A model generated the notes under the pieces. It was not told the DNA's origin. It saw nothing but the letters and a program-made list of their open reading frames with translations, and searched no databases. The translations under genes were made by a program, and so were the position numbers. A DNA stretch of 64,000 nucleotides from Maribacter sp. MJ134 (GTDB lineage Bacteria; Bacteroidota; Bacteroidia; Flavobacteriales; Flavobacteriaceae), in NCBI RefSeq assembly GCF_003970695.1, contig NZ_CP034570.1, forward strand, positions 2,294,001 to 2,358,000, given 5' to 3'. Shown here in pieces: positions 12,360-42,947 of this stretch (position 1 is its first letter; each line of letters opens with the position of its first letter).

Positions 12360-12404
12360 CCGTACACTACAGGATGCTAATCTTTGAAAACACTGGTATA
12401 CTTG
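12360..12404 (+). promoter_or_regulatory. PUL promoter A: triple pentamer box and -7 box
   Basis: The box at 12360-12376 (CCGTACACTACAGGATG) matches the consensus CAGTACAGTACAGGATG at 14 of 17 bases. Exactly 23 nt after ACAGG comes TATACTTG (12397-12404), one mismatch from the Bacteroidetes -7 consensus TAnnTTTG. It points toward the sulfatase at 12559 and leaves a leader of roughly 150 nt. The rest of the 12176-12558 interval holds no gene I can support. Confidence 0.7.
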
Positions 12405-12558
12405 TTAAGGAATAGGTTGCTTTGTTTTAAATCCTAATAAATTTAGCTTAAACACCTCATCTCCTGTATCTCAAACCAATCATATAGAACCATAATGCAT
12501 TATTAGACCTTCATTTTTTAAAAGGATTATAAAAAAGCTTATTATATACCACACTACA

Positions 12559-13905
12559 ATGAAAACACTTTTCAAATCGACCTTTATAGCATTTACACTA
12601 CTCTTCTGTTTCTCCTGCAAGCAAACAAGGCCCGAACGCTCAGAGGAACCGAACACAGAGAAACCACCGAACATTGTTTTTATCTTATCGGACGATCAAG
12701 CATGGACCGATTATGGTTTTATGGGGCATGAACATATTCAGACCCCAAATCTAGATAAGCTAGCTAACGAAAGTTTAACTTTTACAAGAGGATATGTCCC
12801 CACCTCCTTATGTGCTCCATCCCTAGCCTCTATAATAACTGGGGTATATCCAAGAAAACATGGCGTATTGGGTAATGATAGGGTGCTACCAGATAACGTA
12901 AGAGATAAGGGTGGGGAAAATGATTGGCGAAAAACGTGGAGGCCAAAAAATTACGCTACTGTCATTGACAATTTCGACAAGCTAAAAACAACACTTCCCA
13001 AATTATTAAAGGAAAAAGGATATCTATCGTTCCAGACCGGTAAATGGTGGTTGGGTAATTACAAAAATGGAGGTTTTGACTCTGGTATGACCCACGGTGA
13101 TCCGGAACGTGGCGGTAGGCATGGCGATTATGGATTAGAAATCGGTCGCGAGGGAATGGATACCCTATACAGCTACATAGACGTGGCCATGGAAAAAGAG
13201 AAGCCCTTCTTCATGTGGTACGCGCCATTTTTACCGCATTCACCCCATAATCCACCAGATAGTCTTTTACAAAAATACCTACCTAAGGCACCTACCGAAT
13301 ATGTTGCAAAATACTGGGCCATGTGCGAATGGTTTGATATCACTTGCGGCCAATTGATGGATTATATAGAGGATAAAGGCGAAACAGAAAATACCCTGTT
13401 TGTTTATGTCTGTGATAATGGTTGGGTACAAAACGAAACGAATGCTACCTACAACAAAATATCCAAGCGATCTCCTTACGATTATGGTCTTAGAACACCA
13501 ATAATGTACAAGTGGAAAGGAAAAATCACACCGGTTATGGATACCCTTTCCCTTACCAGTAGCTTGGATATGGTGCCAACCGTATTGAGTTTATTGGATA
13601 TGGAGTTACCCGAGGAATTGGACGGCATCAATATTTTGGATAAAAATGCACGAACAGAAAGGGATGCCCTTTTCGGAGAAATATATGCCCACGATTTTAA
13701 TACCATAGACGAAAGCCTGTTTTACAGAATGGCGATGACCCATCCGTTCAAACTGATTCTGCCGGATGAAACCAATAAACCCAACGAAAAGGCTCAACTG
13801 TTCAACATCTATGAGGATCCTTACGAACAAAACGATATTTCCGAAGAGTACCCCGAAATCGTAGAGACACTAAGACAAAAAATAGAGGCCTCTTGGGTAA
13901 AATAA
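12559..13905 (+). CDS. S1-type sulfatase-like lipoprotein with atypical active-site signature
   Basis: A 448-residue member of the formylglycine sulfatase family, with a lipoprotein signal (Cys20, LFCFSCK) placing it on an outer or periplasmic membrane face. Metal-binding Asp residues are in IVFILSDDQAWTD (45-46), and CDNGW supplies the later metal ligands. The signature reads CAPSLASIITG (Cys85 onward): the Arg of the CxPxR motif recognised by the formylglycine-generating enzyme is replaced by Leu89. Either maturation tolerates this, or the protein is a non-canonical or inactive member. First gene after promoter A; the next sulfatase follows 21 nt later. Confidence 0.85.
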   Translation: MKTLFKSTFIAFTLLFCFSCKQTRPERSEEPNTEKPPNIVFILSDDQAWTDYGFMGHEHIQTPNLDKLANESLTFTRGYVPTSLCAPSLASIITGVYPRKHGVLGNDRVLPDNVRDKGGENDWRKTWRPKNYATVIDNFDKLKTTLPKLLKEKGYLSFQTGKWWLGNYKNGGFDSGMTHGDPERGGRHGDYGLEIGREGMDTLYSYIDVAMEKEKPFFMWYAPFLPHSPHNPPDSLLQKYLPKAPTEYVAKYWAMCEWFDITCGQLMDYIEDKGETENTLFVYVCDNGWVQNETNATYNKISKRSPYDYGLRTPIMYKWKGKITPVMDTLSLTSSLDMVPTVLSLLDMELPEELDGINILDKNARTERDALFGEIYAHDFNTIDESLFYRMAMTHPFKLILPDETNKPNEKAQLFNIYEDPYEQNDISEEYPEIVETLRQKIEASWVK

Positions 13906-13926
13906 TTTTGAGTTAAGAGGAAAGTT

Positions 13927-15441
13927 ATGAAATTTAAAGCACTTCTTTTGTTAGGATGTATTGCCATTCTTTCTTTGGGCTGCAAAGAACATGGCCAGGA
14001 AAAAGAGAAATCTGCAAAACGCCCCCCAAATATCCTTTTCATTGCCGTAGACGACCTGAACACCATGTTGGGAAGTTTCGATGGACCGGCAAGAACACCA
14101 AACATAGATCGGTTAGCTGCGATGGGAGTCTCCTTTACGGATGCACATTGCCAAGCCCCATTATGTGGTCCGTCAAGAGCATCTGTGATGACCGGTTTAC
14201 GACCATCTACCACAGGGATATACGGCATGATACCCGATGATAAAATACGTTCGGAAAATCCAGCAACCAAGGACATTATTATGCTGCCGGAATACTTTAA
14301 ACAGCATGGTTACCATACTATGGGAATCGGGAAATTATTCCACATCCATTCCCCAGAAGATATGTTCGATGACTCTGGAGGACGTGTTAAAGGGTTTGGT
14401 CCCCTACCTAAAGAGCGCTTTGTTTGGGATGGTTTTGGAACATCGGACAGAAAAAAATATGGTAAAACAAGCACCGACTGGGGCGCTTTCCCAGAGAACG
14501 ATTCGCTAATGCCCGACCATAAATCTGTTAATTGGGCCATGGAACGTTTAAACCGAAAACAGGATAAACCTTTTTTTATGGGCGTTGGTTTTTTACGCGT
14601 TCATGTACCGCTATATGTACCTCAAAAGTGGTTTGACCTTTATCCTTTGGATAGTATTAAAACTATGCCATATAGACCTGACGATTTAGATGATGTTCCT
14701 GTCGTAGCAAAAATGATAAACGACTTACCAATGATGCCCTCAACGGATTGGGCCATTGAAAGTGGCGAATGGCCAAAAATCATTCAAGCGTATCTTGCAT
14801 GCATTAGTTTTGTAGATTATGAAATTGGGCGTCTCTTAGATACTTTAGAAAAGAGCGAATATGCAGATAATACCATAATCGTATTGTGGTCAGACCATGG
14901 TTATCGTTTAGGCGAAAAAAGCACTTTTGCCAAGCATGCACTTTGGAATGTAGCCACAAAGGTCCCACTCATATTCGCCGCTCCTCAACTACCAAAGGGC
15001 AAAAAAATTGACCGTCCAGCTGAATTGCTTTCCGTATATCCAACGCTCTTGGAATTGGCCGATCTACCTGCTTATGATCGTAACGAAGGTAAAAGTTTAG
15101 TCCCTACCATGTTAGGAAATGACGAGAAACCCTCATTTGCTATTACAACTTTTGGAATGAACAATCATACTATAAAATCGGAACGCTATAGATACATACG
15201 TTATGAGGACGGTAAAGAGGAATTGTATGATCATAAAAATGATCCTAATGAACATACCAATCTGGCAGGACAACAGCAATACAATCAGGAAATTGATAGG
15301 TTAAAATCGCTGTTACCTAAAGGGAACGCTATTTGGGACCAAAATTCCTCTTACACCTTTCAACCTTACTTTGTTGAACAGAAAGCTCGCGTTAACGGTC
15401 TAAGCAAAGAGACTAGGAAACCTACAGAGGCAGATAAATGA
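13927..15441 (+). CDS. Sulfatase, iduronate-2-sulfatase-like lipoprotein
   Basis: A 504-residue S1 sulfatase with a lipobox (LSLGC, Cys19). The metal-site block [10 protein letters not shown] (about 36-45) and the signature CGPSRASVMTG (catalytic Cys80, Arg84) are intact. SDHGYRLGEKSTFAKHALWN is typical of the iduronate-2-sulfatase-like branch. It should hydrolyse sulfate esters from polysaccharide fragments once Cys80 is converted to formylglycine. Second gene of the promoter A unit. The sulfate position cleaved cannot be read from sequence. Confidence 0.92.
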   Translation: MKFKALLLLGCIAILSLGCKEHGQEKEKSAKRPPNILFIAVDDLNTMLGSFDGPARTPNIDRLAAMGVSFTDAHCQAPLCGPSRASVMTGLRPSTTGIYGMIPDDKIRSENPATKDIIMLPEYFKQHGYHTMGIGKLFHIHSPEDMFDDSGGRVKGFGPLPKERFVWDGFGTSDRKKYGKTSTDWGAFPENDSLMPDHKSVNWAMERLNRKQDKPFFMGVGFLRVHVPLYVPQKWFDLYPLDSIKTMPYRPDDLDDVPVVAKMINDLPMMPSTDWAIESGEWPKIIQAYLACISFVDYEIGRLLDTLEKSEYADNTIIVLWSDHGYRLGEKSTFAKHALWNVATKVPLIFAAPQLPKGKKIDRPAELLSVYPTLLELADLPAYDRNEGKSLVPTMLGNDEKPSFAITTFGMNNHTIKSERYRYIRYEDGKEELYDHKNDPNEHTNLAGQQQYNQEIDRLKSLLPKGNAIWDQNSSYTFQPYFVEQKARVNGLSKETRKPTEADK

Positions 15442-15852
15442 AAAAACCAGTCAAAAAACCGTAGATCTAAGCTTAAGATACGCTGGCACGGGTATAATCA
15501 TTTGCTTCTGATAAGTCCTTGTAAGCGTTAAGACCTTTTCAAAAAATAACCTCTGGACGGGCACACAAGGCATTTGATGAATAGTCAACATTTATTTGGA
15601 CGCAAGTGTCGGCGCACTATAAATCTCAATTATCAATTAAGATTTCAAATAAAACAGTGCTAAATAGGCTAAAATTCTATTCAACTAGAGCGCTATTCAC
15701 GGAAACACTATTGCCTATCTCCTCAGTAAATTCCTAAAAAAATAACTATCTGAAAAATTTTTATAGCAATTTTTAATTAATTCTTAATAAAGCAGCAATC
15801 CCAATGAATACAGACGATAACAAGAATTTTTGTTCCAAAATAAGATACCCTA
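15442..15852. other. Gene-free AT-rich interval before susC
   Basis: No convincing reading frame, RNA gene or terminator seen in this stretch between the sulfatase pair and the susC promoter. Stop codons are frequent in all frames. Confidence 0.6.
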
Positions 15853-15897
15853 CAGTACAGTACAGGATGACCTAAAAAAACCTTAACGATAATTTAA
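15853..15897 (+). promoter_or_regulatory. PUL promoter B (susC): perfect triple pentamer box
   Basis: The box CAGTACAGTACAGGATG (15853-15869) is the perfect form: CAGTA, CAGTA, CAGGA head to tail. After 23 nt comes TAATTTAA (15890-15897) at the -7 position. Transcription would start near 15904, about 36 nt before the susC ATG. Confidence 0.78.
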
Positions 15898-15939
15898 CAA
15901 CGTTTAAAAGAATTTACAACTGTATGAAACAACAACCTT

Positions 15940-18900
15940 ATGGAAAAAATTAAACTAAAATCAAACAAACTAAAATCTAGGGTATGTACTTTACTATTTA
16001 CCCTTGGATGCTTAACGGCCTGGTCACAACAGACGGTGACTGGCACAGTATCCGATGAAGATGGCCCATTGCCGGGAGCATCTGTGGTCGTAAAAGGAAC
16101 CACTACTGGCGTCAGCACAGATTTTGATGGTAATTTCACTATTGAAGCGAACACCGATGATACGCTCATGTTCTCTTATATAGGGTATGCCGGTCAAGAA
16201 ATTCGGGTAGGAAACCAAAGTACAATCAACGTAATTCTAGCGGCAGACAACAAACTCGATGAAGTTGTAGTAATTGGTTATGGTACCTCAACTAAAAAAG
16301 ACCTTACAGGATCTGTATCATCCGTAAGTTCCGAAGAAATCACACAGATACCCGCTTCAAGGGTTGACCAAGTTTTACAAGGTAGGGCCGCAGGGGTTCA
16401 GGTTACCCAAGCAAGTGGTGCGCCCGGTGCGGGGACGACTATACGTGTAAGGGGTGGTAACTCTATTACCGGTAGTAACGAACCTCTTTTCGTTATTGAT
16501 GGGATTGTAGTTGGGACCAATTTTAACTTGAACAATATCAACCCCAGCGATATTCAGTCCCTTGAAATTTTAAAGGATGCCTCTTCTATTGCCATATATG
16601 GTTCTAGAGGTGCAAATGGGGTGGTTTTGGTTACGACCAAAAGTGGTCGTGGTACAGGAACCGGTAAACCTGAAGTGAGTGTTAATTTATTCACCAGTAT
16701 GCAAATGTTGCCTGAACTTCCAGATATATTAACTCGCGAGGAACAAATTGCTTTTACTAATGAACATAATACTTTTAGAGGCGTGGCGATACCATTTCCA
16801 GATGATCCATCTACCTACCCTGATAATGATTGGGTTGATTTAACGACGGGCCCCGCTCCAATTTATAATGCGGACGTATCCATTTCAGGATCATCAGAAA
16901 ATGTGAACTATTACAACTCTATCAATTACTTTAATCAAGAAGGTATTGTAAATAGTACGGGTATCGAAAAATTTATTTTCAGATCCAATTTAGATATTAA
17001 TCTAAGTGATAAATTAAAAGCAGGTTTCCGTATCAATTATTCAAGACTAAAAAATAATAATGGCCTTACCTCCTTTGGCGGGAATTTGTTCGGAACTTTA
17101 CGTACACAACCGGCATTTAATGAGGACGGCACTTTTAATGGGTTTAATGATGTCGTTGGTTCTCCATTCAACAACCCGCTTGCAAATTTTGAATTGAATA
17201 CCAATGAAACCTTTACCAATAACTTATTGGGCACGGCGTATTTAGAATACAAACCAGCACCCGGTTGGATCATTCGTTCAACGTTCAGTCCAGAATTCAA
17301 TAATGTTAAACGAAACAGATTCAATTCTAGCCAATTACCGGGCAACCTTGCCGTAGGTATAACAGATGGCGGCAATGCAAGCGTTAGAACTGTAGCTAGT
17401 GTGGGTTGGAACAATGAAAACACCATACAGTACAATACCCAATTGGGAGAAAATCACAGCTTAACCGTTCTTGGAGGTGCTTCTTTCCAAAAAGTAGAAA
17501 CAGAGATTACAGAGGCGGAAGCGGCAGGTATCACCAGTGATGCCACAGGCTTTAATAACTTAGGTAATTCAGACCCAATAAGATCGGTCGTAACTAGTGA
17601 TTATAACGGATTTCAAATTGCCTCTTTTTTTGGAAGGATAAACTATGACTACAAAGACAAATACCTGCTGACCTTAGTAGGAAGAACAGATGGTAGTTCT
17701 GTTTTTGCCCCAGGTAACAAGTATAATTTTTATCCCTCTGTGGCAGCGGCCTGGAACATCAATGAAGAGGAGTTCATGCAGAATCAGAGCTTATTCAGTA
17801 ATTTAAAATTAAGGGCTAGTTGGGGTAAATCTGGTAACCAAGCAATAGGACCATATAGAACATTGGGTGTTCTAACCGAAGCGAACACGACACTTAACGG
17901 TGCCGAGGTACCAGGTTTAACCTTGGGTAGGCCTTCCAACCCTAATCTACAATGGGAAACCACCACTTCATTGGATATCGCTTTGGAAGCATCACTATTT
18001 GGCGGTAGGATATTTACCGAATTCAACTACTACCAAAAGGAGACCAACGACCTACTATTGGATGTGACCATACCAAGACAAACCGGTTTTACAAGCCAAT
18101 TGCAAAATGTTGGCGCACTTGAAAATAGAGGATGGGAATTGTTGATTAATTCAACCAATATATCCAACGATAACTTCAATTGGAATAGCACCGTAACCTT
18201 GGCTAGAAATAAGAATGAAATTTTAGATCTTGGGGGCCAAGATTTTATTGATCTTGTCGTGGATCCTATTATAGGTTCGGGTAATACGCGATTAATTGTT
18301 GGTGAATCGGTTCCTGTTTTCACGGGAGTAAATTATTTAGGTACTTGGAAAAGTCAAGAGGAAATTGATGCCTCAGGTTTAACATCACAAGTTGTCGGTG
18401 GGTCAAGATTCGAAGATTTGAATGGCGATGGTATTATATCGACAGAAGACAATGTGGTTTTGGGAAGTCCTTTCCCGGATTTAATTTTCGGTTTCGAAAA
18501 CTCATTTTCATATAAGAATGTTGATTTTTCCTTTTTCTTTCAAGGTACCACAGGCAATGAGGTATTTAACTTAAGAATGCGAAATCACTATTTTAATCGT
18601 GCCGAAACAGTAAAATTTGGAGATTTACGGGATCGTTGGACGCCGGATAACCCTACCTCAAATATTCCTAGGGCAGGAAGTGATTCTGTAACCAATACGC
18701 CTATTAATTCGGAGTATGTAGAAGATGGTTCGCACATTCGTCTTAAAGCGGTACGTTTGGCCTATAATTTCCCTACCGATAAAATGGGCTTGGATGGAGT
18801 GAAAAATGCAACTATATACTTAAACGGTAGCAACTTATTATTGTTCTCCAAAACTCGTTTGATCGAACCTGAAGCCAATAATTTTAACGAAGGTAATAAC

Positions 18901-18987
18901 CAATTTGGCAATATAGCACTTGGATTTTTAGATGCGAATTATCCTAATCCTCGGATTATTACACTTGGTCTTAATGTAACTTTCTAA
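15940..18987 (+). CDS. SusC/RagA-type TonB-dependent outer-membrane transporter
   Basis: A 1015-residue TonB-linked glycan importer. After the signal peptide (ending TAWSQ, about residue 30) comes the carboxypeptidase-regulatory-like domain (about 33-110, GTVSDEDGPLPGASVVVKGT). Then come the TonB-box-like LDEVVVIGYGT, the plug (about 125-235, with FVIDGIVVG and IAIYGSRGANGVVLVTTKSG) and a 22-strand barrel ending GLNVTF. It is the only SusC in the window. susD follows after 16 nt. Promoter B lies directly upstream. It should import oligosaccharides released by the surface enzymes of this PUL. Confidence 0.97.
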   Translation: MEKIKLKSNKLKSRVCTLLFTLGCLTAWSQQTVTGTVSDEDGPLPGASVVVKGTTTGVSTDFDGNFTIEANTDDTLMFSYIGYAGQEIRVGNQSTINVILAADNKLDEVVVIGYGTSTKKDLTGSVSSVSSEEITQIPASRVDQVLQGRAAGVQVTQASGAPGAGTTIRVRGGNSITGSNEPLFVIDGIVVGTNFNLNNINPSDIQSLEILKDASSIAIYGSRGANGVVLVTTKSGRGTGTGKPEVSVNLFTSMQMLPELPDILTREEQIAFTNEHNTFRGVAIPFPDDPSTYPDNDWVDLTTGPAPIYNADVSISGSSENVNYYNSINYFNQEGIVNSTGIEKFIFRSNLDINLSDKLKAGFRINYSRLKNNNGLTSFGGNLFGTLRTQPAFNEDGTFNGFNDVVGSPFNNPLANFELNTNETFTNNLLGTAYLEYKPAPGWIIRSTFSPEFNNVKRNRFNSSQLPGNLAVGITDGGNASVRTVASVGWNNENTIQYNTQLGENHSLTVLGGASFQKVETEITEAEAAGITSDATGFNNLGNSDPIRSVVTSDYNGFQIASFFGRINYDYKDKYLLTLVGRTDGSSVFAPGNKYNFYPSVAAAWNINEEEFMQNQSLFSNLKLRASWGKSGNQAIGPYRTLGVLTEANTTLNGAEVPGLTLGRPSNPNLQWETTTSLDIALEASLFGGRIFTEFNYYQKETNDLLLDVTIPRQTGFTSQLQNVGALENRGWELLINSTNISNDNFNWNSTVTLARNKNEILDLGGQDFIDLVVDPIIGSGNTRLIVGESVPVFTGVNYLGTWKSQEEIDASGLTSQVVGGSRFEDLNGDGIISTEDNVVLGSPFPDLIFGFENSFSYKNVDFSFFFQGTTGNEVFNLRMRNHYFNRAETVKFGDLRDRWTPDNPTSNIPRAGSDSVTNTPINSEYVEDGSHIRLKAVRLAYNFPTDKMGLDGVKNATIYLNGSNLLLFSKTRLIEPEANNFNEGNNQFGNIALGFLDANYPNPRIITLGLNVTF

Positions 18988-19003
18988 AAAAAAAGAATTA
19001 GAT

Positions 19004-20572
19004 ATGAAAACAAAGAACATTTATTTATTCGTCTTCATCATTTTCACAATCGTAAGTTGTGAGAAGTTTTTGGAAGAGGATCCTAGAGCAGTTATTGCCC
19101 CGGAGACATTTTTTGCATCTGATAATGATGCTAGGCAAGCCATACAAGGCACATACGCCATATTAAAGAACAATTCAATTTACGGTCAGGTAGGCCTCGA
19201 CCATTTTTATGACAATGGTGCGGATATCATAGAACCGAACAGACCTGCCAATTTTGTACAGCCTATTGGTGATTATATTTTAGACGAGGCTCTGGCCGAT
19301 GTATCCGTTCAAAAAATGAGTGTGTCCGATACCTGGAAAGACCTCTACCGAGTAATCTTTAACGCTAATTTCATCATTGATAGAGTTACGGATAATGAAG
19401 CCATACTTGAAGAAGTGCGTACCGAGGTTATTGCTGAAGCTAGGTTTCTTCGCGCTTTAAGTTATTGGCATATCACCAATCTTTGGGGTAATGCACCCTA
19501 TTACACCGAAGCTTTGACCCTCGATGAAGTAAGGGTTTTAGGTAGAACTGATGAGGCAACTATTCTAGAGGGAGTAATAGCCGATTTACAATTTGCGCAA
19601 GGAGTCTTACCCTCCACGTATCCTGACGACCAAAGAGGTCGTGCATCAAGATGGGCAGCTGCTATTATTGAGGCAAAAATTTATATGAAGCAGCAAAACT
19701 GGCAAGCCGGTCTCACCAAGTGTTTAGAAATTATTAATGAATCTCCTCACGTATTGTTGCCGACCTATGAAGAGGTATTTGATCCAGCTAACGAATATAA
19801 TGCGGAGATTATTTGGTCATTGGATTTTGCAAGAGATATTGAAGGTATATTTGACCCCGCTTTCCCAGGAAGATCTTTTGCGGGTAATAATAGCTGGAGA
19901 CCGAGTATGTTCAACCCTCGTTTACGGGATGAACCTGCCAATTCGGACGAAAGAGGCGCTTTAAGGGAGGCATTATCCGCAAGAGGAGAGGCTTTCAATG
20001 GTACAGGTTTACAGGTAGCCGCAAAAGACTTTGCAGAGACATTTCCTTTAAATGATTTGAGAAGACCACTAAATATAGTGGATAACTACCTAGGGTTCGA
20101 GCTTAATTTTCCCTATATGGCAAAATTCTGGAATTTAGATTTAGCAACATCGCCACGTTTCAATCATGAAGATAATCGTATGGTTTTTCGATTGGCGGAC
20201 GTATACTTAATGGCTGCAGAATGTGAAAACGAAGCTAATGGACCCGGAGGAGCATATCAATATATTGAGCCCATACGCCAACGAGCTTATGCTACCCAAG
20301 CCGAGTGGGAATTGGTAGGTTTGAGCCAACAAGAGTTCAGAGAAGCTATTTATGACGAGCGTAAGTGGGAACTGGCGGCTGAAGCTCATAGAAGATATGA
20401 TTTAATCCGTTGGGGAATTTTGTTCGATGTAATGGAAAACATTGAATACAGGTTTTGGAGCCCAGCACAGAATATTAGACCTTGGCACGTATTGTTGCCC
20501 ATTCCCTTGCAGGAATTGGAACAGAACCCAGCTTTATTGGAATCAGACCCAACCAATAACGGCTACCGTTAA
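19004..20572 (+). CDS. SusD/RagB-type glycan-binding lipoprotein
   Basis: A 522-residue surface lipoprotein (lipobox IVSCEKF) that captures glycan over the SusC channel. The N-terminal FLEEDPRAVIAPETFF block, the TPR-like helical body and the C-terminal RLADVYLMAAECENEA, IYDERKWELAAEAHRRYDLIRWG and LLPIPLQELEQNP segments are typical of SusD. It sits 16 nt after susC. The unit ends at a strong terminator at 20626-20659. Confidence 0.96.
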   Translation: MKTKNIYLFVFIIFTIVSCEKFLEEDPRAVIAPETFFASDNDARQAIQGTYAILKNNSIYGQVGLDHFYDNGADIIEPNRPANFVQPIGDYILDEALADVSVQKMSVSDTWKDLYRVIFNANFIIDRVTDNEAILEEVRTEVIAEARFLRALSYWHITNLWGNAPYYTEALTLDEVRVLGRTDEATILEGVIADLQFAQGVLPSTYPDDQRGRASRWAAAIIEAKIYMKQQNWQAGLTKCLEIINESPHVLLPTYEEVFDPANEYNAEIIWSLDFARDIEGIFDPAFPGRSFAGNNSWRPSMFNPRLRDEPANSDERGALREALSARGEAFNGTGLQVAAKDFAETFPLNDLRRPLNIVDNYLGFELNFPYMAKFWNLDLATSPRFNHEDNRMVFRLADVYLMAAECENEANGPGGAYQYIEPIRQRAYATQAEWELVGLSQQEFREAIYDERKWELAAEAHRRYDLIRWGILFDVMENIEYRFWSPAQNIRPWHVLLPIPLQELEQNPALLESDPTNNGYR

Positions 20573-20625
20573 TAAGTAATAAAAACGTGTAAAGACTTAA
20601 AGAAAGTTGTTTGAGTTAGTTTGAA

Positions 20626-20659
20626 AATGGGGTAAGCATCGTGCTTGCCCCATTTTTTT
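20626..20659 (+). terminator. Rho-independent terminator after susCD
   Basis: A 13-bp stem (20626-20638 with 20642-20654, one U-G wobble), a 3-nt loop and a run of seven T (20653-20659). It closes the susC-susD transcript, so the following GH5-like gene needs its own promoter. Confidence 0.88.
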
Positions 20660-20743
20660 AGCCTTAAACTCGTTTTGAGATTATATCAATAATTGAAACT
20701 ACACACTGCTTGAAACTTTTATTCAACCATTAAACCAAAACCC

Positions 20744-22153: not shown

Positions 22154-22301
22154 CAATCTGCGGCATAATACGCTCCTCCTAGTATGTATTAACATGCTTA
22201 AAGAAAAATGTTTAGACCTGAAAATAACTTTTATTTAAGAGATTAAATTTCCACTATAGTTTGATATACAGTAATTTAACAAAGGTTCTAGAAAACTCAT
22301 T

Positions 22302-24845: not shown

Positions 24846-24962
24846 GTATGGAATAATAAAGCAATCAACTTTAGCACTGTTTTTTATCATAGCGCCTATG
24901 TATTCAAGAAAAACCTACAAGGTATTCAACAAGTAGATTATCACCCTAAAAGTAACACCTAA

Positions 24963-26738
24963 CTACATTTCTACCACGGTACTAGATAAATAGCCAATTC
25001 GGTGCGCCTTAACGATAAGCTTAGCCCCGTTAGGCAAATCAAATGGTTTTTTATAAACGGACCAAGCCGTTGGCATAGGTGCATCGGGAAAGAGAATTTT
25101 ATACCCTATGGAGGCACCTGCTGTTGCAGAGCTCAGTGAGACAGCCCCATCGGTTGCGCTTATCACCGGGTCAGCGGTGACGGGTTGTTTTTCCGCGCCT
25201 TTCCATAATTGACTTAACAGTTCCTTTTCAGGCAAATTGGGCTGGTCTCCAATTTCGGCAATCCAATGATCCATTTCATTTTGGAGCTCCTTAAGCTTCG
25301 CGGCATATTTGGGGTCGTTAGCCAAATTATGCAACTCGTACGGGTCGTTCAGACAATCGAATAATTCCTCTTGATCCTTGGTCTTGCGAAACCACTGCAT
25401 TTGAACACTATCCAGTTCGCCAGCATCGCGCAAACGCAATAACTCCTGCATGGTCGGTATTTTTTCCCGGTAATCAATAGGCAAATAATAGCCCTGGTCC
25501 GGCCTGTAATTTCGAATGTACTTAAAGCGTTCATCACGAACGGCACGTATAGCATCGGTATACCCATCGAAGCGATCCGCAGCCGCATGAATATATTTTC
25601 GTTCTTCACTGGCTTTATACTTACCTAAAAAAGCTTGCCCCTGGATATGTGCCGGTGGATTGGTTCCCGTAAGGGATAATAGTGTAGGTGCAAAATCAAT
25701 AAAACTGACCAATTCCTCATCTTTTGTTCCTGCGTTCGTTTTATTTGGAAATCTTACTATCAGAGGCGTGTTTAAACCAGAATCATAAATCAGCCTTTTT
25801 TCCCTAGGTAAAGGACCGCCATGATCTCCGTAGAAAAATATGATGGTATTTTCCAATAGTCCGTCTTCCTCCAACTGCTTTAAAACCGCCCCAACCTGGG
25901 CGTCCATTTCGACAATGTTATTATACAACTTCCACATGTCCCTGCGAACGACTTCCGTATCCGGCAAATAAGGTGGAATGGTAAACTTGGTATCTCTGGA
26001 TAAATGTTTTGGCGTTTCCGCTTCGGACATTCTGTTTTTGGCGTGTGAGCCTTCAAAATTTTTCCACTTATAATCCCTATCTCCGGAATGGTAATGTCTG
26101 GTTTCGATTTCCCTAAGGCCATAGGGCTCGAACAATCCCGATTCATGCGTATCGGTAAAATTCATCACCGAGAAAAAAGGTTGCCCTGCTCCCCTATTTC
26201 TCCAGTGCGCATACGGACTACTCTCGTCCCAGGCCGTCATGGGTGCTTGAAACTGATAATCAGTCTTATAATTGTTGGTACAGTAATATCCATTTGCCCG
26301 TAACAGTTCGCTTATCATTTTTACCTCTGGTGGTGGTACAGCTCCATATTTTGGTAAACCGGTAACTTCAGTATAGCTGGTGGTACGCATATGGTTGGCA
26401 CCAATACTGGACGGATACATTCCCGTAGCAATTGCGGCCCTACTAGGAGCGCAAACGCCAGAAGTAGAATAGAGGTTGGGATACACCACACCTTCCGCTG
26501 CCAGCCGACTTATATTGGGCGTCACGATGGTAGAGTCCCCAAAGGAAGGAATATAAGCCCCCATATCCTCGGTCACCAACCACAGAATATTGGGCCGTTC
26601 GGGGAGTACGGCTGCAGCTTTTTCTTTAGAAACATCCTTCTCTTTTTTGGTTTTCATATTACATCCTACAAGCAGTATTACTAATAGAAAAATTGAAGCG
26701 AATGAATTTTTTAAACGAAGAAAAGAATCTGTGACCAT
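24963..26738 (-). CDS. S1 sulfatase lipoprotein with C-terminal Fn3-like extension
   Basis: A 591-residue sulfatase. The metal block is ILWLVTEDMGAY (about 51-62), the signature CAPSRAAIATG starts at catalytic Cys96, and FYGDHGGPLPREKRL carries the later ligands. The text SSIGANHMRTTSY following the signature marks a distinct S1 branch. After residue 510 a small beta domain (VSLSSATAGASIGYKI to the end) looks like a chitobiase-C or Fn3-associated module. An in-frame ATG at 26759 exists, but promoter C predicts a transcript start at about that base. I therefore choose 26738, which gives a compact lipoprotein signal (LLVGC, Cys26). Confidence 0.9.
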   Translation of the reverse strand: MVTDSFLRLKNSFASIFLLVILLVGCNMKTKKEKDVSKEKAAAVLPERPNILWLVTEDMGAYIPSFGDSTIVTPNISRLAAEGVVYPNLYSTSGVCAPSRAAIATGMYPSSIGANHMRTTSYTEVTGLPKYGAVPPPEVKMISELLRANGYYCTNNYKTDYQFQAPMTAWDESSPYAHWRNRGAGQPFFSVMNFTDTHESGLFEPYGLREIETRHYHSGDRDYKWKNFEGSHAKNRMSEAETPKHLSRDTKFTIPPYLPDTEVVRRDMWKLYNNIVEMDAQVGAVLKQLEEDGLLENTIIFFYGDHGGPLPREKRLIYDSGLNTPLIVRFPNKTNAGTKDEELVSFIDFAPTLLSLTGTNPPAHIQGQAFLGKYKASEERKYIHAAADRFDGYTDAIRAVRDERFKYIRNYRPDQGYYLPIDYREKIPTMQELLRLRDAGELDSVQMQWFRKTKDQEELFDCLNDPYELHNLANDPKYAAKLKELQNEMDHWIAEIGDQPNLPEKELLSQLWKGAEKQPVTADPVISATDGAVSLSSATAGASIGYKILFPDAPMPTAWSVYKKPFDLPNGAKLIVKAHRIGYLSSTVVEM

Positions 26739-26765
26739 AGTTATTTTGTAAATTAACATGTATTA

Positions 26766-26810
26766 CAATATTAAGGGTATTTCTTCTTAGGCGTACCCTG
26801 TACTATACTG
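26766..26810 (-). promoter_or_regulatory. PUL promoter C, reverse strand
   Basis: On the reverse strand, CAGTATAGTACAGGGTA (26810 to 26794) is followed after exactly 23 nt by TAATATTG (26773 to 26766), one mismatch from TAnnTTTG. It points to the sulfatase starting at 26738, leaving a leader of about 20 nt. The divergent esterase gene starts at 26818, only 8 nt from the box on the other side. Confidence 0.72.
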
Positions 26811-26817
26811 AAAACTC

Positions 26818-28289: not shown

Positions 28290-28334
28290 CAGGACAGAAC
28301 AGGATGGATAAAACCCCCTCTAAACCTATGTTTG
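28290..28334 (+). promoter_or_regulatory. PUL promoter D with consensus -7 box
   Basis: CAGGACAGAACAGGATG (28290-28306) is followed after exactly 23 nt by TATGTTTG (28327-28334), a perfect TAnnTTTG. Transcription would start near 28341. It drives a five-gene unit running to 39916. Confidence 0.78.
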
Positions 28335-31400: not shown

Positions 31401-31929
31401 TGTATACGGCTCTCAATTTTTGATGGACGGGCTATATAATGCAGGGGAAGAAGATTATGCCTTAGACCTCTTAGTGGATACCAGTGATAGAAGTTGGTAC
31501 AATATGATACGTATAGGTTCTACCATCACTTTAGAAGCTTGGGACAATAAGTATAAGAACAATCTAGACTGGAACCATGCGTGGGGTGCCGTACCTGCAA
31601 ATGTAATTCCAAGGGGACTATGGGGTATAAAACCAAAAACGCCCGGATTTGGAATTGCAACCATCAAACCACAAATGAGCAAGCTTAAATCCAGTAGTAT
31701 TGAAGTGCCTACCGTAAGAGGGACTATAAAAGGAACCTTTACGCATAATGGACCTCGACTTCAGACGTATGAGATAGAAATACCCGGTAATATGGTCGCG
31801 GAGTTTTCTTTGAACAATCTAGACGGTAAGGACTTTATTCATAACGGCGAAAAAGTACCATCTGCTTTTGAATATATCAGGTTAGACCCGGGTAAACATA
31901 CCATTCAATTAAAAATCAATTCATTTTAA
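28408..31929 (+). CDS. Sulfatase-GH78 alpha-L-rhamnosidase fusion
   Basis: A 1173-residue bifunctional enzyme with a signal peptide ending LIRAQ (residue 21). Residues about 28-465 are an S1 sulfatase: [10 protein letters not shown], signature [11 protein letters not shown] (Cys78) and [12 protein letters not shown]. Residues about 470-1173 form a GH78 rhamnosidase with a Fn3-like start ([20 protein letters not shown]), beta-sandwich domains and an alpha/alpha-barrel with [18 protein letters not shown] (acidic residues Asp763 and Glu765) and [11 protein letters not shown]. It could desulfate and then release rhamnose from the same end. The frame is open from a TTG at 28336, but that precedes the predicted transcript start (about 28341); the ATG at 28408 begins the signal peptide. 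Confidence 0.93.
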
Positions 31930-31961
31930 ACACTTACCATTAGCTATAATCTGCGGTACCT

Positions 31962-33827: not shown

Positions 33828-33853
33828 CAATGCTCGAACAAGTACATTTTGCA

Positions 33854-35857: not shown

Positions 35858-35885
35858 GAACACTTAAGAATAATACGGTTAAGTC

Positions 35886-38429
35886 ATGATAAAAAGAACA
35901 GTTTTTACCTTTATAATCGTTCTCCTGCTAGCACTTAACGGTACCGCCCAAGAACGCGAACGCCCGTTTATATGGGTAACTACCTCAGAACGAAATACTA
36001 TTCTACAAAAAATTGAGGATAACACTTGGGCAGCGAAGTATTACGATGGATTAAAGAAAAAAGTTGACCAACAGATAAGCGAACATCAAAATGACCCTCA
36101 GGCTTTTTTGAGAGGAATGCCGTTGGATTGGGAGAAAGAAATAAATGGCAATATCCCACCTCTAACCTACACCACTACGGGCAAAAAAGGGAAACACGAA
36201 AATTTAGACAATGCCAGTGATGAAGAAATGGCCAACTTTAATATGTTGTCGGATTATCTCCAAACCGCTATTGATTGTGGCGTACTCTACTACCTAACTC
36301 AAGAAGAAGCCTATGCACAATGTGCTACGGATATTCTTCACACCGCAATAAACGGACTCATACAATTGAAACCGTCCGACTGGAAACCGAGAGGAGGCTG
36401 GTTATGTCCGGATGATATTCTTAGGGAATCCAGGGTCATCGGGGAAAAATATCCTATTGCATATGATTTTGTAGCACCCTTTCTTAACAAAGGGGGCATG
36501 GCTTACGATATCGGAAAGAAAAAGAAAGTTGATTTCCCCATGGAAAAAGCCCAAACAGTATTTAGAACCTACGCTCAACTCGTGATAGATAACGGAATGG
36601 TCAATTCCAATCACCCCGTATTAGAATCCAATTGTTTGGTGTACAATACGTTGGCTTTGAATGATTTGAAAAAACGAAATAGCTTTTTGGAATATTACTT
36701 GACAAAAAACACATCCAATCAGGATGCGCTCGCTAAAGTGGCTGAATTTTATAAGAACGAAGGTGATATTTGGCCAGAATCTTCGCAATACACCAATGAT
36801 GTTGCTGAGCGTTCTACGAAATTGATGTTTCTTTTGACAAAGTATGACCCAAACTTAAAATTGGGTAGAACTTATCCTAATATTCCGTGGGCCATACAAA
36901 GACTAGATTATTTGGTGAATCCCAATGGAGAATTGTTGTTATGGGGTGATGGCCACCGCAAATACAAAACGCCCTATGAGGCATTTGAACTGGCATACAA
37001 TCTTGGTAAGTTAGATAGCGTGCCCGGGCTCGAAAAGCAATTTTCAACTTTACTGGGAGCGGCCATGAGCGAAGGAAAGTATCATCGTGAAGGTTTAGAG
37101 GCACTACTTTGGTTTCATCAAGATTTTGAAAAAAATGATATTGAAATTAACTTACCCAGAACGGACGAACAACCCCATGCCGGTATATTTCTGCAACGCA
37201 ATTTAAGTAGTACAAATAATCCTGATGACGGGTTAATGTGCTTTGTTGGTGGAGCTTCCATGGTGCATGGCCATGCTTCTGGAATGTATATGGAACTATA
37301 CGGGGAAGGTGTAGTACTGGGAGTGGACAATGGTCGTGGAAAGTACGCCCAAGACATTCATGAAAACTATTCGAGAATTTTTGCTGCGCACAATACCGTT
37401 ATTGTAAACGGGGCTTCACAGGGCGAAGGTGAATGGGTAAACTTGGGAATGGAGACGGTAACTTTAGCATCTATGGAGCCCATGCCAACGCAAGAAGCCG
37501 TATCCCCTAACTATTCATTTACCACTACCAATTTTTATGATGGTGGCGGAGACAAAGCAGAGGCAGAACAACAAAGAACTATGGCTTTGGTTCGCACATC
37601 GCCAACAACCGGCTATTATTTGGATATTTTTCGTTCTAAATCGGCCCTGCCGAACGAATTTCATGATTACCTCTACCATAATCTAGGGGAATCACTCAAT
37701 TTCTTAAATGAAGACCTCATCCTAAAACCCGAACCGCAACGGTACATGGCAAATGCCAATGGCGAATGGAAACGAAATCGCATTTTTAGAAATCCGGGAT
37801 GGCACTTTTTTGAGGACGTAATGACTTCCAAACCCTATAACAAGGACATTCAAGTACTTTTTAAGTCGGAAGGTTTTCAGGGCAAAAAACGTTATATGAA
37901 AATGTTCATGCCCGGTTTTGCTGGTCGTACCTATACGAAGGTAAAAGCACCCAAAACATTCGAGGCACCTGCTCCCTACGATGAAATGCCTACACCCACC
38001 TTGGTCGTGCGACAAAACGGCGAGGCTTATACCAAACCCTTTGTTGCGGTATACGAACCCTTTGCGACCAGTGAAACTAATGGGTCGGTAATAGCCGTTG
38101 AGAAATTGGAACAGAACGGAATCCTTAAGGGTGTCAAAGTAACGAGCTCTGTTGATGAAGAGCAGCTTGTACAGTATATCATTACCAGTACGGAGAACGG
38201 TTTTCTTTCACTGCCAGAAAAAGACATGAGCTTTCAGGGCCACTTTGCCATTATTACCTACGATACGGATGACAAGCTAAAAGATATCTACATTGGGAAC
38301 GGTGAACGCTTGGAAGTCGACCAACATATTATAAAAACCATGAATACAGATTCAAGAGCGGGTTACATTAATTTTTCAGCCGATACGCCCAGTATACGTG
38401 GAAACATAAGTTTGATGCCTAAAGAATAA
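35886..38429 (+). CDS. Heparinase II/III-like polysaccharide lyase (copy 1)
   Basis: An 847-residue secreted enzyme (signal peptide ending GTAQ, residue 22). An alpha/alpha toroid (about 25-400) precedes a beta-sandwich with the superfamily motifs [15 protein letters not shown] (His461, His463) and AHNTVIVNG (His502). Such lyases cleave uronic acid-containing chains by beta-elimination. A paralogue at 47736 shares RTSxTTGYYLDxFRSKS and [10 protein letters not shown]. Related toroid lyases are reported from ulvan PULs (from memory, unverified), so an ulvan-lyase role is plausible. It lies 28 nt after the previous gene and 5 nt before the next sulfatase, inside the promoter D operon. Confidence 0.85.
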
Positions 38430-38434
38430 ATTAT

Positions 38435-39916
38435 ATGAACTTAAGAAAAAATGCGACTTCGTTCGCTGCAAAAATCACCTGTGGTGTGCTTTGCTCATTG
38501 TTGTTACTTTCCTGCAAATCGGGACAAAAACAGGAAACCAAAAACCAAGAAAAGCAAAAACCCAATATCCTTTTTATCGCCGTGGATGATTTAAGACCTG
38601 AGCTTAATTTTTATGGCGCGGAACATATCAGCTCCCCAAATCTTGATGCGCTTGCAGCGGAGAGTTTGGTTTTTGACAGGGCCTATTGCAGTGTTCCAAC
38701 CTGCGGTGCATCCAGAGCAAGTATTCTCACAGGAACTCGCCCTACGCGCTACCGTTTCTTGACCCACGACGTTAAAGTGGACGAAGAGATACCGGAGGCC
38801 ATTACCCTACCCGAGCTTTTTAAAGCCAACGGATACACCACCATATCCAACGGAAAAGTGTTGCATCATAAGAACGATAGAAAAAAAGCATGGGACGAAA
38901 TCTGGCGGCCTGAAAAAGGAACCGTAAATTATTTCACCGAAGAAAACAAAAATCTGATTGCATCACCTGAATCACGTGGTAATCCTTTTGAAACCTCCAC
39001 GGTAGATGAAAATGAATATTTAGATGGTAAGATTGCCGCCAAGAGTATTGCCGACCTCAAAAAACTAAAGCAAGACGGTAAACCCTTTTTCTTGGCCATG
39101 GGTTTTATGAAACCCCACCTACCCTTTAATGCACCACAAAAATACTGGGACAAATACCCTATTGAAAACATTACCCTTCCTGAAAGTTATGTACAGCCCA
39201 AAACTACGCCGTCTAAGGCATTCCATAAGTTTGGGGAACTCCGCAACTACCACAGCGTTCCTCAAAAAGGGCCGGTTACGGATGAAATGGCAAAAAAGCT
39301 TATCCAAGGGTATTTTGCCTGTGTAAGCTTTGTTGATGCCCAAATTGGTAAGGTACTGCAAGAGTTGGAAGACTCGGGCATGGCAGAAAACACCATTGTT
39401 GTCTTATGGGGCGACCACGGTTGGAATTTAGGAGAACACCAACTATGGTGCAAGCATTGCACCTTTGAAACGTCCTTACATAGTCCGCTTATCATTAAGG
39501 TACCGGGCAAAACAAAAGGAGAGCACACGGCTAATATCACAGAGTTTATTGATGTGTATCCTAGTCTGGCAGAATTAGCAGGGTTAGATGTTCCTGAAAA
39601 TCAATTGGAAGGAGAAAGTTTTGTGTCCCTCATTAACGGCACACCTGAAAAGCGACAAAAAGACTATGCCGTTTCTAAATTCAAAGATGCGGTTACGCTA
39701 ATACAAGGGGACTATTTCTATACCGAATGGACAGACAACGAAGGAATCGCCTATGCCAGAATGTTGTTTGACCACCGTACCGACCCTATGGAACTGGACA
39801 ACCTAGCGGAAAAAGAATCACACCAAACTATCGTTAAGGAAATGGCTGCTGCACTTCGTGAGAAATGGGGTGCTAATTTTTTGGTGAATACGGTTGCTCC
39901 TGCTAATACACACTAA
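38435..39916 (+). CDS. Sulfatase, iduronate-2-sulfatase-like lipoprotein
   Basis: A 493-residue S1 sulfatase with lipobox LLSC (Cys27). [17 protein letters not shown] supplies the first metal ligands, the signature [11 protein letters not shown] starts at catalytic Cys90, and [18 protein letters not shown] is diagnostic of the iduronate-2-sulfatase-like branch. The Lys/His residues of the substrate pocket appear intact. Last gene of the promoter D unit, 5 nt after the lyase, ending at a bidirectional terminator. It probably desulfates lyase products. Confidence 0.93.
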
Positions 39917-39966
39917 TTAGAATTCCGTTCGTTAATAAAACATGCAACAAAACTCTATTGAATTAA

Positions 39967-39995
39967 AAATCCCCGAGCTAAAAACTCGGGGATTT
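39967..39995. terminator. Bidirectional terminator between convergent PUL operons
   Basis: A perfect 11-bp stem, AAATCCCCGAG (39967-39977) and CTCGGGGATTT (39985-39995), with a 7-nt loop. T-rich tracts on each side let it act for both the promoter D operon and the convergent oxidoreductase/DUF1080 operon, whose last stop is at 40000. Confidence 0.9.
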
Positions 39996-39999
39996 ATTA

Positions 40000-41343
40000 T
40001 TACATCATAAACTTAGACTTCCAAGACTCTTCATAAGGCTTGCCCCAATGTTGCATCGCCTCTCTATTGTACATGATTCCTGTTTTACTGTCTATTTCAA
40101 AGTTTTGGTTGATGCGTGAAGATACGTTCGCATAATGTACCATGGCCATTGAAATGTTGGCATCGTCTATAGGCGCCATTGCCTTTTCCTTGCCCCTAAT
40201 GGTCTCAAAGAAATTCATTACATGTATGGTGGACATATCACCACCGCCACCGAGCGCAACTCCGCCTTCTTCGCCTCCGCTGGACACTTCTTCAATCAAC
40301 TTCCCTTTTCTATCGAATAATTTATAATGGCCACGATTCACAAAAACGGTCCCCTCGGTACCGTAAACAATCACTCCTCTACCACTTCCGTAGGTATTAT
40401 AAGCATTCCTGCTTTTACCGTCCCATTCTATTTGTTTGTTTTTGTCAAAAGTAAATTTCGCCATCATGGTATCGTACATTTCCCAGCCATCGTCCACAAA
40501 ATGTCTTTTGGTAGCATCGACCTCTACTTTTTGGGGAAAACCAACATCAAGCGCCCAACGAGCAACGTCCAATTCGTGGGTGGCATTGTTGCCCATTTCT
40601 GCCGTACCATAATTCCATCCGTACCAATGCCAATTGTAATCCCAGGTTTCGGAAGTATACTCCCTGTGCACCGCTGGTCCCTGCCACAGGTTCCAATCCA
40701 GACCTTCCGGCACGGCGGCTGCTTTTTGGTGCGGTACCTCGCCACGTCCATTGCTGTAAAAAGCAACCGCTTTGTAAGCATCGCCGATGGCGCCTTCATG
40801 AATCTTTTTTACAATCTGTATGGTGTGTGCAGAGGAACGTTGTTGATTCCCCATCTGCACCACTTTACCGTATTGTTTGGCTGCGTCTACAATCATCTCG
40901 TTCTCCTCCATGGTACAGCTACTCGGCTTCTCTACATATACATGCTTGCCCGCTTTCATGGCCATAATGGACCCCGGGGTATGCCAATGGTCGGGCATAG
41001 CGTTAATGAGTACATCGACCTTATCATCTGCCATCACCTTAAAAATATCTTGCTCCAGTTTTGGCTTATAGTTGATATGTTTTTCAAAGTTACCGGCCGC
41101 TTTGGTCATTTGGCTCTGCTTGGCATCGCATAAATACACTAATCTAACATTACTTTTCTTATGGGCGATGGGCGCATAGAAGGCTCCTAGCCTACGCCCT
41201 AGTCCGGCTATGGCCACGTTCAAACGGTCATTAGCACCGATAATATTGTTATAGCTTTTGGCACTCATGGCCATGGAGGAGGATGCCGCCAAGCCAACAC
41301 TGCCCAAAGCTGTTTTCTTTATAAAACTTCTACGATTTGTCAT
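40000..41343 (-). CDS. Gfo/Idh/MocA-family oxidoreductase, exported
   Basis: A 447-residue NAD(P)-dependent sugar oxidoreductase with a twin-arginine-type leader (NRRSFIKK, residues 3-10), so probably exported with its cofactor bound. The Rossmann block is VAIAGLGRRLGAFY, the catalytic lysine motif is VYVEKPSSC, and MGNNATHELDVARWAL carries the substrate-side residues. It follows the DUF1080 gene by 5 nt. This family can make 3-keto sugars, and DUF1080 proteins act on 3-keto-glycosides, so the pair suggests oxidation followed by elimination of a glycosidic bond. That link is inference from family knowledge. Confidence 0.92.
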   Translation of the reverse strand: MTNRRSFIKKTALGSVGLAASSSMAMSAKSYNNIIGANDRLNVAIAGLGRRLGAFYAPIAHKKSNVRLVYLCDAKQSQMTKAAGNFEKHINYKPKLEQDIFKVMADDKVDVLINAMPDHWHTPGSIMAMKAGKHVYVEKPSSCTMEENEMIVDAAKQYGKVVQMGNQQRSSAHTIQIVKKIHEGAIGDAYKAVAFYSNGRGEVPHQKAAAVPEGLDWNLWQGPAVHREYTSETWDYNWHWYGWNYGTAEMGNNATHELDVARWALDVGFPQKVEVDATKRHFVDDGWEMYDTMMAKFTFDKNKQIEWDGKSRNAYNTYGSGRGVIVYGTEGTVFVNRGHYKLFDRKGKLIEEVSSGGEEGGVALGGGGDMSTIHVMNFFETIRGKEKAMAPIDDANISMAMVHYANVSSRINQNFEIDSKTGIMYNREAMQHWGKPYEESWKSKFMM

Positions 41344-41348
41344 TACTC

Positions 41349-42734
41349 TTAGTTTTCTGTTTTTATTTTGATATTTCTGAAAGAAACGAGGTCGCCATGG
41401 TCTTGGAGAAGTATATTACCCTTTTCCAACAACCCAAAATTGGGCCAGTCCTTATACTTGCTTTCGCTTACCAATTGTAAAAAGTCTTCGCTACCACGCT
41501 CGTATTCCAAAATCTTAACACCGTTTAACCAATGTTCCACTTGGTTGTTTTTGGATACGATATGTGCTGTATTCCATTCCCCTATCGGATGCATATGTTT
41601 ACTGGTGTCCGCCTGAATTAAATCATAAAGGGACCCGACGGTTCTACTACCCTCGTGACTTCCCAATTTCGCATCGGGATGGCGTTCATCGTCCAAAATC
41701 TGAAACTCTAATCCTATGGAGGAGCCTTCACCCTTATTCAGCTCGGTATCTACGTAATATTTGATACCGCTATTGGCACCTTCGGTTATCTTAAAATCGA
41801 CCTTCACTTCAAAATTATCATACATTTTCTCGGTAACGATATCGCCACCTGCAGTAGATTCGCCACCGCCACTAGCAAGCACGCTTAGGACACCATCCTT
41901 AATTTCCCAGCCTTTTTCGGGAAAGGTTTCCAACTTGGCACCTCTCCAACCTTTGGTAGTCTCACCGTCCCAGAGCATTTCCCAACCTGCCTTCTTTTCA
42001 TCGTAGGTCAGTTGGTTTTTTGTAACCACCGGAGTTAAAGGAGACGGTGTACTGTACTGCGCTAGATTCTCGGTAATGAATTCAATATTCCTCCATTTGA
42101 TTTCCACGTCGGGCTTTCCGTTTTTCCCAATACTATGTACTTGCAGGGCTATAAATCCTTCTGCCGTCATATCGTCTATAACATAAGCCGCTGGCACCTT
42201 ATTGAGCCATGTTTTTATAGTGTCACCAATGGCCTCGATACGAAAATGATTCCAGTCATTGGGTTTGTAGGCTTTTTGCGCCGCAGGATTATCTACAAGC
42301 GGATTCAACCACTTTCTTCTTTTCTCATCGTACAGACCGCCACTCCATGCTCTTTTGGAAGGGTCTATCTCTACTTGATAGCCGTGTACCATACCATCTC
42401 TGTACCAAGGCAGACTATTACTTCTTATCTGCACGCCGGAATTAGACACGGAATCCGTCTTAAAATCCAGCTCCAATATAAAATCCGAATAATTTGAATC
42501 CGTTGCCAAAAAGGTATTGGGTGTATTGGCGACGGTTGTACCAATAATTTCACCGTTTTCAACTTTGTAGGTAGCCTCCCCACCGATGGTATGCCAGCCG
42601 TCTAAGTTCTCTCCATTGAATATGGGTGTAAGGTGGTCCTTACTGGTATCCTCACAACTGGTTGACCCTAGCACTATTGAAAGTACTACAATAATCTTAA
42701 ACGTTGGTAGGGAGGTAAAAAAGTGTCTTTTCAT
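41349..42734 (-). CDS. Tandem DUF1080 (3-keto-disaccharide hydrolase-like) lipoprotein
   Basis: A 461-residue lipoprotein (lipobox region LGSTSCED). It holds two DUF1080 jelly-roll domains, about 30-215 (LTPIFNGENLDGWHTIGG, FILELDFKT, NSGVQIRS) and about 245-460 (WEMLWDGETTKGWRGA, NFEVKVDFKITEGANSGIKYYV). DUF1080 enzymes are linked to cleavage of 3-keto-glycosides. Having two copies in one chain suggests either two specificities or one catalytic and one binding domain. First gene of the promoter E unit, leader about 14 nt, followed by the oxidoreductase after 5 nt. Confidence 0.9.
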   Translation of the reverse strand: MKRHFFTSLPTFKIIVVLSIVLGSTSCEDTSKDHLTPIFNGENLDGWHTIGGEATYKVENGEIIGTTVANTPNTFLATDSNYSDFILELDFKTDSVSNSGVQIRSNSLPWYRDGMVHGYQVEIDPSKRAWSGGLYDEKRRKWLNPLVDNPAAQKAYKPNDWNHFRIEAIGDTIKTWLNKVPAAYVIDDMTAEGFIALQVHSIGKNGKPDVEIKWRNIEFITENLAQYSTPSPLTPVVTKNQLTYDEKKAGWEMLWDGETTKGWRGAKLETFPEKGWEIKDGVLSVLASGGGESTAGGDIVTEKMYDNFEVKVDFKITEGANSGIKYYVDTELNKGEGSSIGLEFQILDDERHPDAKLGSHEGSRTVGSLYDLIQADTSKHMHPIGEWNTAHIVSKNNQVEHWLNGVKILEYERGSEDFLQLVSESKYKDWPNFGLLEKGNILLQDHGDLVSFRNIKIKTEN

Positions 42735-42754
42735 TTTATATCTAGTTTATGTTT

Positions 42755-42798
42755 TAAAATTACAGTTTACACAGGTTAAACCGTCCTGTACTGCCCCG
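42755..42798 (-). promoter_or_regulatory. PUL promoter E, reverse strand
   Basis: On the reverse strand, CGGGGCAGTACAGGACG (42798 to 42782) is followed after 22 nt by TAATTTTA (42762 to 42755). It points to the DUF1080 gene (start 42734). With promoter F it forms a back-to-back pair 104 nt apart. Confidence 0.7.
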
Positions 42799-42902
42799 TT
42801 ACATTTCAGCGAATGTTGACGTCTATAAATTCTTGACCGTAATAGACAATAGTTGAACCCGCTAAACACGAAGTTAGACGACTTGAATATAAGAAAAGTA
42901 CA

Positions 42903-42947
42903 CCATATAGTACAGGATGGTACATTTCAACGCTTGGTTTAGTTTTA
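42903..42947 (+). promoter_or_regulatory. PUL promoter F for the right-hand operon
   Basis: CCATATAGTACAGGATG (42903-42919) is followed after exactly 23 nt by TAGTTTTA (42940-42947). The predicted transcript start is near 42954, 32 nt before the ATG at 42986. It would drive the compact operon that runs to about 61.1 kb. Confidence 0.75.

Follow-up and report, generated by a model that had tools for sequence, protein, structure and literature searches.

A direct-repeat promoter box in a predicted ulvan-type polysaccharide region of Maribacter sp. MJ134 and its candidate rhamnose-linked GntR regulator

The window analyzed here, a stretch of 64,000 nucleotides from Maribacter sp. MJ134 (contig NZ_CP034570.1), contains six copies of a 17-bp promoter box, CAGTACAGTACAGGATG in its best form, which belong to a set of 13 boxes within 128 kb of the genome. 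This box is probably the site of a RhaR-like regulator of the GntR family with a LacI-type sugar-binding domain, linked to L-rhamnose use, that would activate the 13 promoters. The region appears to be devoted to the digestion of an ulvan-type polysaccharide, a substrate assignment made from the genes alone: the frame at 47736-50210 of the window matches the PDB chain named Uly1040 (9vtk; 4.6e-86), which we take to be an ulvan lyase, and GH78, GH106 and sulfatase genes are also present.

The six boxes reported in the original prediction are all found in the sequence at the positions and on the strands claimed, and each faces a predicted gene start (Table 1). The pentamer series CAGTA-CAGTA-CAGGA, said to be shared by all six, is complete at 15853; in the other five, the first two pentamers vary. 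The best matches are those already named, that is, the box at 15853 and, among the -7 elements, the one at 28327. Counted from the first base of the 17-mer, the last base of ACAGG is number 14 and the first base of the -7 is number 38, which leaves the predicted gap of 23 nt in five sites, with 22 nt in the sixth (42782-42798, minus strand). Five sites with at most three mismatches to CAGTACAGTACAGGATG are observed in the window compared with 0.03 expected from shuffles, so that the window boxes do not arise by chance.

The genome is a single contig of 4.016 Mb, and a scan of all of it with up to three mismatches yields 14 matches, against three for the reversed control; nine of the 14, including all seven with at most two mismatches, fall within 2306360-2433980 (128 kb, about 3% of the genome). 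With 120 kb added around the window, 184 kb were scanned for the ACAGG core with at most five mismatches, which gives 16 matches; 13 of these lie between predicted genes and carry a -7 element, and the three inside predicted genes (2389336, 2422952 and 2454307) lack it and were dropped. Two of the 13 (2409527 and 2418915) have five mismatches and were retained as intergenic sites with a -7; all 11 own sites with at most four mismatches carry the element. The six predicted sites, all of them real, are accordingly part of a set that continues beyond the window. Each of the 13 boxes faces a gene start, at a distance of 34 to 182 nt from its end, and all are followed by a TAnnTTTG-like -7 (4 to 6 of 6 letters), which starts 20 nt after the 17-mer in 12 cases and 19 nt after it in one. 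Scored at offset 20, ten boxes match 5 or 6 of the 6 letters, two match 4, and one matches 3 (5 at offset 19). The summed score is 62 of 78, with 36 for the next best offset; in 5000 shuffles, the common-offset score averages 33 and never exceeds 42. The case against function raised with the original prediction was that similar boxes might be as frequent inside genes; this is not borne out, as the in-gene matches of the scans are weaker and have no -7. Of the ten box-like matches outside the cluster, five come from the scan with up to three mismatches and five from a second scan; nine of them are located in stop-free frames of at least 190 codons, none of the ten having a -7 of at least 5/6 at the fixed place. 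Two weak matches in the 184 kb to a matrix trained on the 13 own sites (2277859 and 2451028; scores 15.7 and 14.5) also lack a good -7.

Among 113 non-identical sites, selected on matrix score and on a -7 with 4/6 letters, positions 10-14 read CAGGA almost invariably, positions 0-4 are mostly CAGnA and positions 5-9 mostly YAGTA, followed mostly by TR and then, with strong preference, by G or C. Read as direct repeats, the sites show the highest identity at period 10 (0.69) and period 5 (0.62), the best inverted reading reaching 0.58, and in four loci tandem boxes are 10 or 20 bp apart, with the helical phase kept. An inverted repeat, CnGTA-N3-TACnG, was rejected as only partial, position 3 being T in 59 of the 113 sites. 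According to an excerpt of PMC9723704, the sigma-A element of a flavobacterium is TAnnTTTG, and in Flavobacterium psychrophilum the -7 occupies -12 to -5; with the -7 in that place, the 17-mer covers -49 to -33. On these coordinates, carried over from F. psychrophilum, the box overlaps the -35/-33 region and ends 20 nt before the -7, a position that suggests a class II activator on a housekeeping-type promoter. A looser triple-pentamer scan is not by itself proof of the spacing: since the repeat aliases by 5 bp, spacings of 15 and 25 score like 20 (23, 18 and 20 hits).

Two regulators stand out among the scanned genes: a hybrid two-component system (HTCS) protein at 2405258-2409394 and a 348-aa protein with GntR and Peripla_BP_3 domains at 2432716-2433762, encoded between the box of the rhamnose operon and that of a second SusC gene, about 75 kb past the window end. 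The latter protein contains an N-terminal GntR winged helix (PF00392, 46.2 bits with a cut-off of 27; PDB GntR chains are matched as well) and a C-terminal sensor domain of the LacI or periplasmic-binding type, that is, the organization of an AraR-type chimera. A candidate regulator is hereby named where the original prediction had none. Homologues with 90% identity are present in G003, G008, G022 and G050 (G and L numbers are our handles for genomes and loci).

Across 199 family genomes, the strict box with its -7 is found in 37 of the 42 that encode a homologue with at least 46% identity and in 7 of the 157 that do not; this cut-off was chosen after the tables had been seen, and when all 74 regulator matches are counted without it, the box is present in 38/74 versus 6/125 genomes (p 3e-14). 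The reversed-pattern control matches 2 of the 199. The five misses hold variant boxes detected by a looser scan, near the gene in G178, G211, G230 and G241, and farther off, also before rhaD, in G209. In a smaller genome set, G013, G015 and G025 have a strict-core match without a close homologue, as chance allows.

The phylum-wide set consists of the best 80 of 591 homologue loci, picked by similarity (55-90% identity, up to 21 kb each; L115 is from the genome of G022), and spans Flavobacteriaceae, Saprospiraceae, Lewinellaceae, Cyclobacteriaceae and others. Boxes are present in 76 of these 80 loci (137 matches; permuted matrices give a mean of 2 and a maximum of 5), and a -7 of at least 5/6 lies at offset 20 in 94 of 136 sites, each of the other offsets from 10 to 31 accounting for at most four. 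At least one of rhaD, rhaI and rhaB is found in 65 loci; in the other 15, some on short contigs, none is detected at 40% identity or higher. A box directly precedes 45 of 64 rhaD starts (median distance 67 nt), always with a -7 of at least 4/6 at 20 nt, and 18 of the other 19 starts belong to Flavobacterium, where a box is found about 1.2 kb farther up, presumably in front of a different first gene. Three genomes (G060, G102 and G210) each encode three or four members of this GntR group (at least 49% identity), partly side by side in G102 and G210, and these duplicated rhamnose regulators may have split targets.

Regulators with 42-46% identity form a branch of their own, also beside RhaD-like or rhamnosidase-like genes (some identified by eye), and their boxes are CAGAA-CAGTA-CAGAA-like, with the -7 again at 20 nt. 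This A-type box occurs in five of seven entries of the branch, L218 having both types and L200 none; two other entries, L196 and L197, have weak boxes only. The RhaD proteins of the L198 and L199 genomes are 85-86% identical to that of Maribacter, as close as those of many main-type genomes, so the change of the box goes with the regulator, not with the operon; this joint variation of site and regulator appears to lend the assignment limited support. The sister clade of homologues with about 40% identity, used as an outgroup (e.g., L201 and L209), has no box in 14 of 14 entries, in loci that reach about 2.5 kb on each side. By eye, the L201 gene of this clade adjoins a putative UDP-galactose epimerase.

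From the box, its spacing, the promoter set and the co-occurrence, all of which are seen in the sequence, we infer a mechanism of direct binding, with rhamnose as the signal and activation rather than repression as the outcome. The RhaR-like protein would bind the CAGnA run as directly repeated units, which at a period of 10 bp lie on the same side of the helix. The bound regulator would then sit just upstream of the housekeeping-type -7, replacing the -33 element and touching RNA polymerase as a class II activator. L-rhamnose, or a product of it, freed from the polysaccharide would switch on the 13 promoters together and, with them, SusC/SusD transport, sulfatases, rhamnosidases, lyases, uronate catabolism and rhamnose catabolism.

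Several observations weigh against this mechanism. RhaD is encoded in all 42 genomes with a main-type regulator, so that co-occurrence alone cannot part the regulator from the rhamnose operon; only the diverged branch and the loci without rha genes do so, and these are few. The diverged genomes with RhaD are themselves uneven, with a variant box near the regulator in G165 and G095, weak boxes only in G122 and G078, and none in G082; the rhaD start of G095 itself has no box. At the cut-off used, 13 of 89 main-clade entries have no box within 3 kb, four of the 80 phylum-wide loci have none at all, and G028, with a 57% homologue, has none in two scans. Box 5 has the odd 19-nt spacing, and the calibration of the -33 position failed, 133 box-free TAnnTTTG sites giving no TTG peak; a genome count of the -33 pattern (473 real versus 352 control matches, with the first 100 places listed) is reported with no inference drawn. 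The main rival to activation is repression at the same box: the same regulator would lie over the -33 region and block RNA polymerase until it is released by rhamnose or a derivative, which we regard as unlikely but worth serious attention. FucR is a repressor, and the box does overlap the -33 position. AraR, with the same domain make-up, is named a repressor in PDB entries. In Zobellia, the GntR protein AusR, which controls alginate use, also represses, as described in an excerpt of PMC8286568. A repressor, however, needs no fixed spacing, yet the gap of 20 nt recurs in 12 of the 13 Maribacter sites and in most of those from other genera, and the tandem copies run upstream, not over the start. 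Furthermore, the -33 slot holds GATR or GACA in the box, a poor fit to TTTG, the sequence of the -33 element.

The HTCS protein, which lies inside the boxed region and has an AraC-type DNA-binding domain, was the first suspect, and Bacteroides HTCS motifs are described as direct repeats in an excerpt of PMC3878776; that it binds the box is nevertheless highly improbable. It was dropped because of the scarcity of its orthologues and because G022 keeps its boxes with no such HTCS seen nearby: orthologues (67-70% identity) are detected only in G003 and G050 among 60 relatives, with at most 10 candidates scored per genome, and 100 kb of G022 contain none with at least 40% identity, yet keep 12 boxes with a -7 of at least 4/6 at 20 nt. 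Moreover, an orthologue of this HTCS is near only one of the 80 regulator loci (the best 80 of 591), and the Bacteroides repeats average 21 bp apart (same excerpt of PMC3878776) versus 10 bp here. The SusC/SusD pair next to the HTCS gene (L026:2484-7053, the HTCS being L026:7258-11394) has no box in the scans of the Maribacter genome; this pair may form an HTCS-controlled unit of its own within the boxed region. The fixed spacing to the -7 would also fit an upstream element of a promoter read by an alternative sigma factor, a reading that we consider scarcely credible given that the -7 is of the sigma-A type TAnnTTTG and that the box tracks the GntR gene. For the same two reasons, the non-housekeeping promoter offered in the original prediction finds no support; the functional regulator site for the whole locus, offered beside it, does, with a reach well past the window.

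Within the window, the proposed regulator would control S1 sulfatases, one SusC/SusD pair, a fusion of sulfatase and GH78, a keto-disaccharide hydrolase together with an oxidoreductase, and a run of GH78, PL40-like lyase and GH106 genes. Together with the target sets outside the window (Table 1), they place boxes on both the rhamnose and the uronate branches of ulvan-type polysaccharide use.

Table 1. Boxes, -7 elements and the genes that follow them (boxes 1-6 and their -7 elements in window coordinates, the other boxes in genome coordinates)
Feature	Sequence	Position	Strand	Mismatches or -7 letters	nt past box end	Genes that follow
Box 1	CCGTACACTACAGGATG	12360..12376	+	2 mismatches to CAGTACAGTACAGGATG		S1 sulfatase 12559-13905
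-7 of box 1	TATACTTG	12397..12404	+		20	
Box 2	CAGTACAGTACAGGATG	15853..15869	+	0 mismatches		SusC-like 15940-18987, SusD-like 19004-20572
-7 of box 2	TAATTTAA	15890..15897	+	4/6 letters	20	
Box 3	CAGTATAGTACAGGGTA	26794..26810	-	3 mismatches		sulfatase 24963-26759(-)
-7 of box 3	TAATATTG	26766..26773	-		20	
Box 4	CAGGACAGAACAGGATG	28290..28306	+	2 mismatches		sulfatase-GH78 fusion, likely ATG start 28408
-7 of box 4	TATGTTTG	28327..28334	+	6/6 letters	20	
Box 5	CGGGGCAGTACAGGACG	42782..42798	-	4 mismatches		3-keto-disaccharide hydrolase 41349-42734(-), oxidoreductase 40000-41343(-)
-7 of box 5	TAATTTTA	42755..42762	-		19 (sole odd spacing)	
Box 6	CCATATAGTACAGGATG	42903..42919	+	3 mismatches		gene run from ATG 42986: lipoprotein-like, GH78, PL40-like, sulfatases, GH106
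-7 of box 6	TAGTTTTA	42940..42947	+		20	
Box outside window		2368610				GH106 and GH78
Box outside window		2382098				isocitrate/isopropylmalate dehydrogenase-type gene with kinase-like and transporter genes
Box outside window		2393157				cytochrome-type protein
Box outside window		2409527				short-chain dehydrogenase/reductase (SDR), sulfatase, UxuA, KduI, DctP set
Box outside window		2418915				GMC oxidoreductase
Box outside window		2432591				rhamnose operon
Box outside window		2433964				second SusC

The long gene run after box 6 is headed by a 636-aa lipoprotein-like or exported protein (42986-44896 of the window) that matches no Pfam family and no PDB sequence. At the end of the window (62124-64000, L024:14-4252), a long frame of near-identical DDGTNLILTDSDGN repeats, leaving the window, resembles a repetitive surface protein, encoded amid the polysaccharide utilization locus (PUL), and a frame just past the window end bears a Peptidase_S74 chaperone domain.

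GntR control of a flavobacterial PUL (AusR) is already known, and in Bacteroides an AraC protein is known to control rhamnose catabolism. AusR of Zobellia galactanivorans, a marine flavobacterium, is likewise of the GntR family and controls most alginate-use genes including PUL genes; it differs in that it represses and is released by oligosaccharides, a likeness and a difference drawn by description from an excerpt of PMC8286568. AraR of Bacillus subtilis has the same GntR-LacI domain make-up but is a repressor, whereas here direct repeats fit better and the promoter position is a single fixed one. The AraR operator is palindromic. The HTCS and SusR proteins of Bacteroides PULs sense oligosaccharides. 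They resemble the present case in local PUL control and in sites described as direct repeats, and differ in the distance between their tandem sites, about 21 bp for HTCS and 67-77 bp for SusR, according to an excerpt of PMC3878776. RhaR of Bacteroides thetaiotaomicron (BT3768) also controls rhamnose catabolism but belongs to the AraC family, with a predicted regulon of a single operon (same excerpt of PMC3878776). In the open-access literature searched, subscription papers being outside the scope, no description was found of a regulator of a flavobacterial ulvan locus, nor of the candidate regulator, its direct-repeat site, the promoter place or the target set. We put at about even odds the full combination, in which a GntR-LacI regulator reads 10-bp direct repeats rather than a palindrome, acts as a class II activator from a single fixed position and, with a monosaccharide as its signal, serves as master switch for 13 promoters over 128 kb and both branches, a scheme conserved in several Bacteroidota families.

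One regulator, its site and a set of 13 promoters become directly testable, and one sugar-sensing protein may switch the whole region. The box may allow rhamnose regulons to be read from sequence alone in many Bacteroidota, and a monosaccharide, in place of HTCS or SusR proteins, may govern the use of a green-algal polysaccharide.
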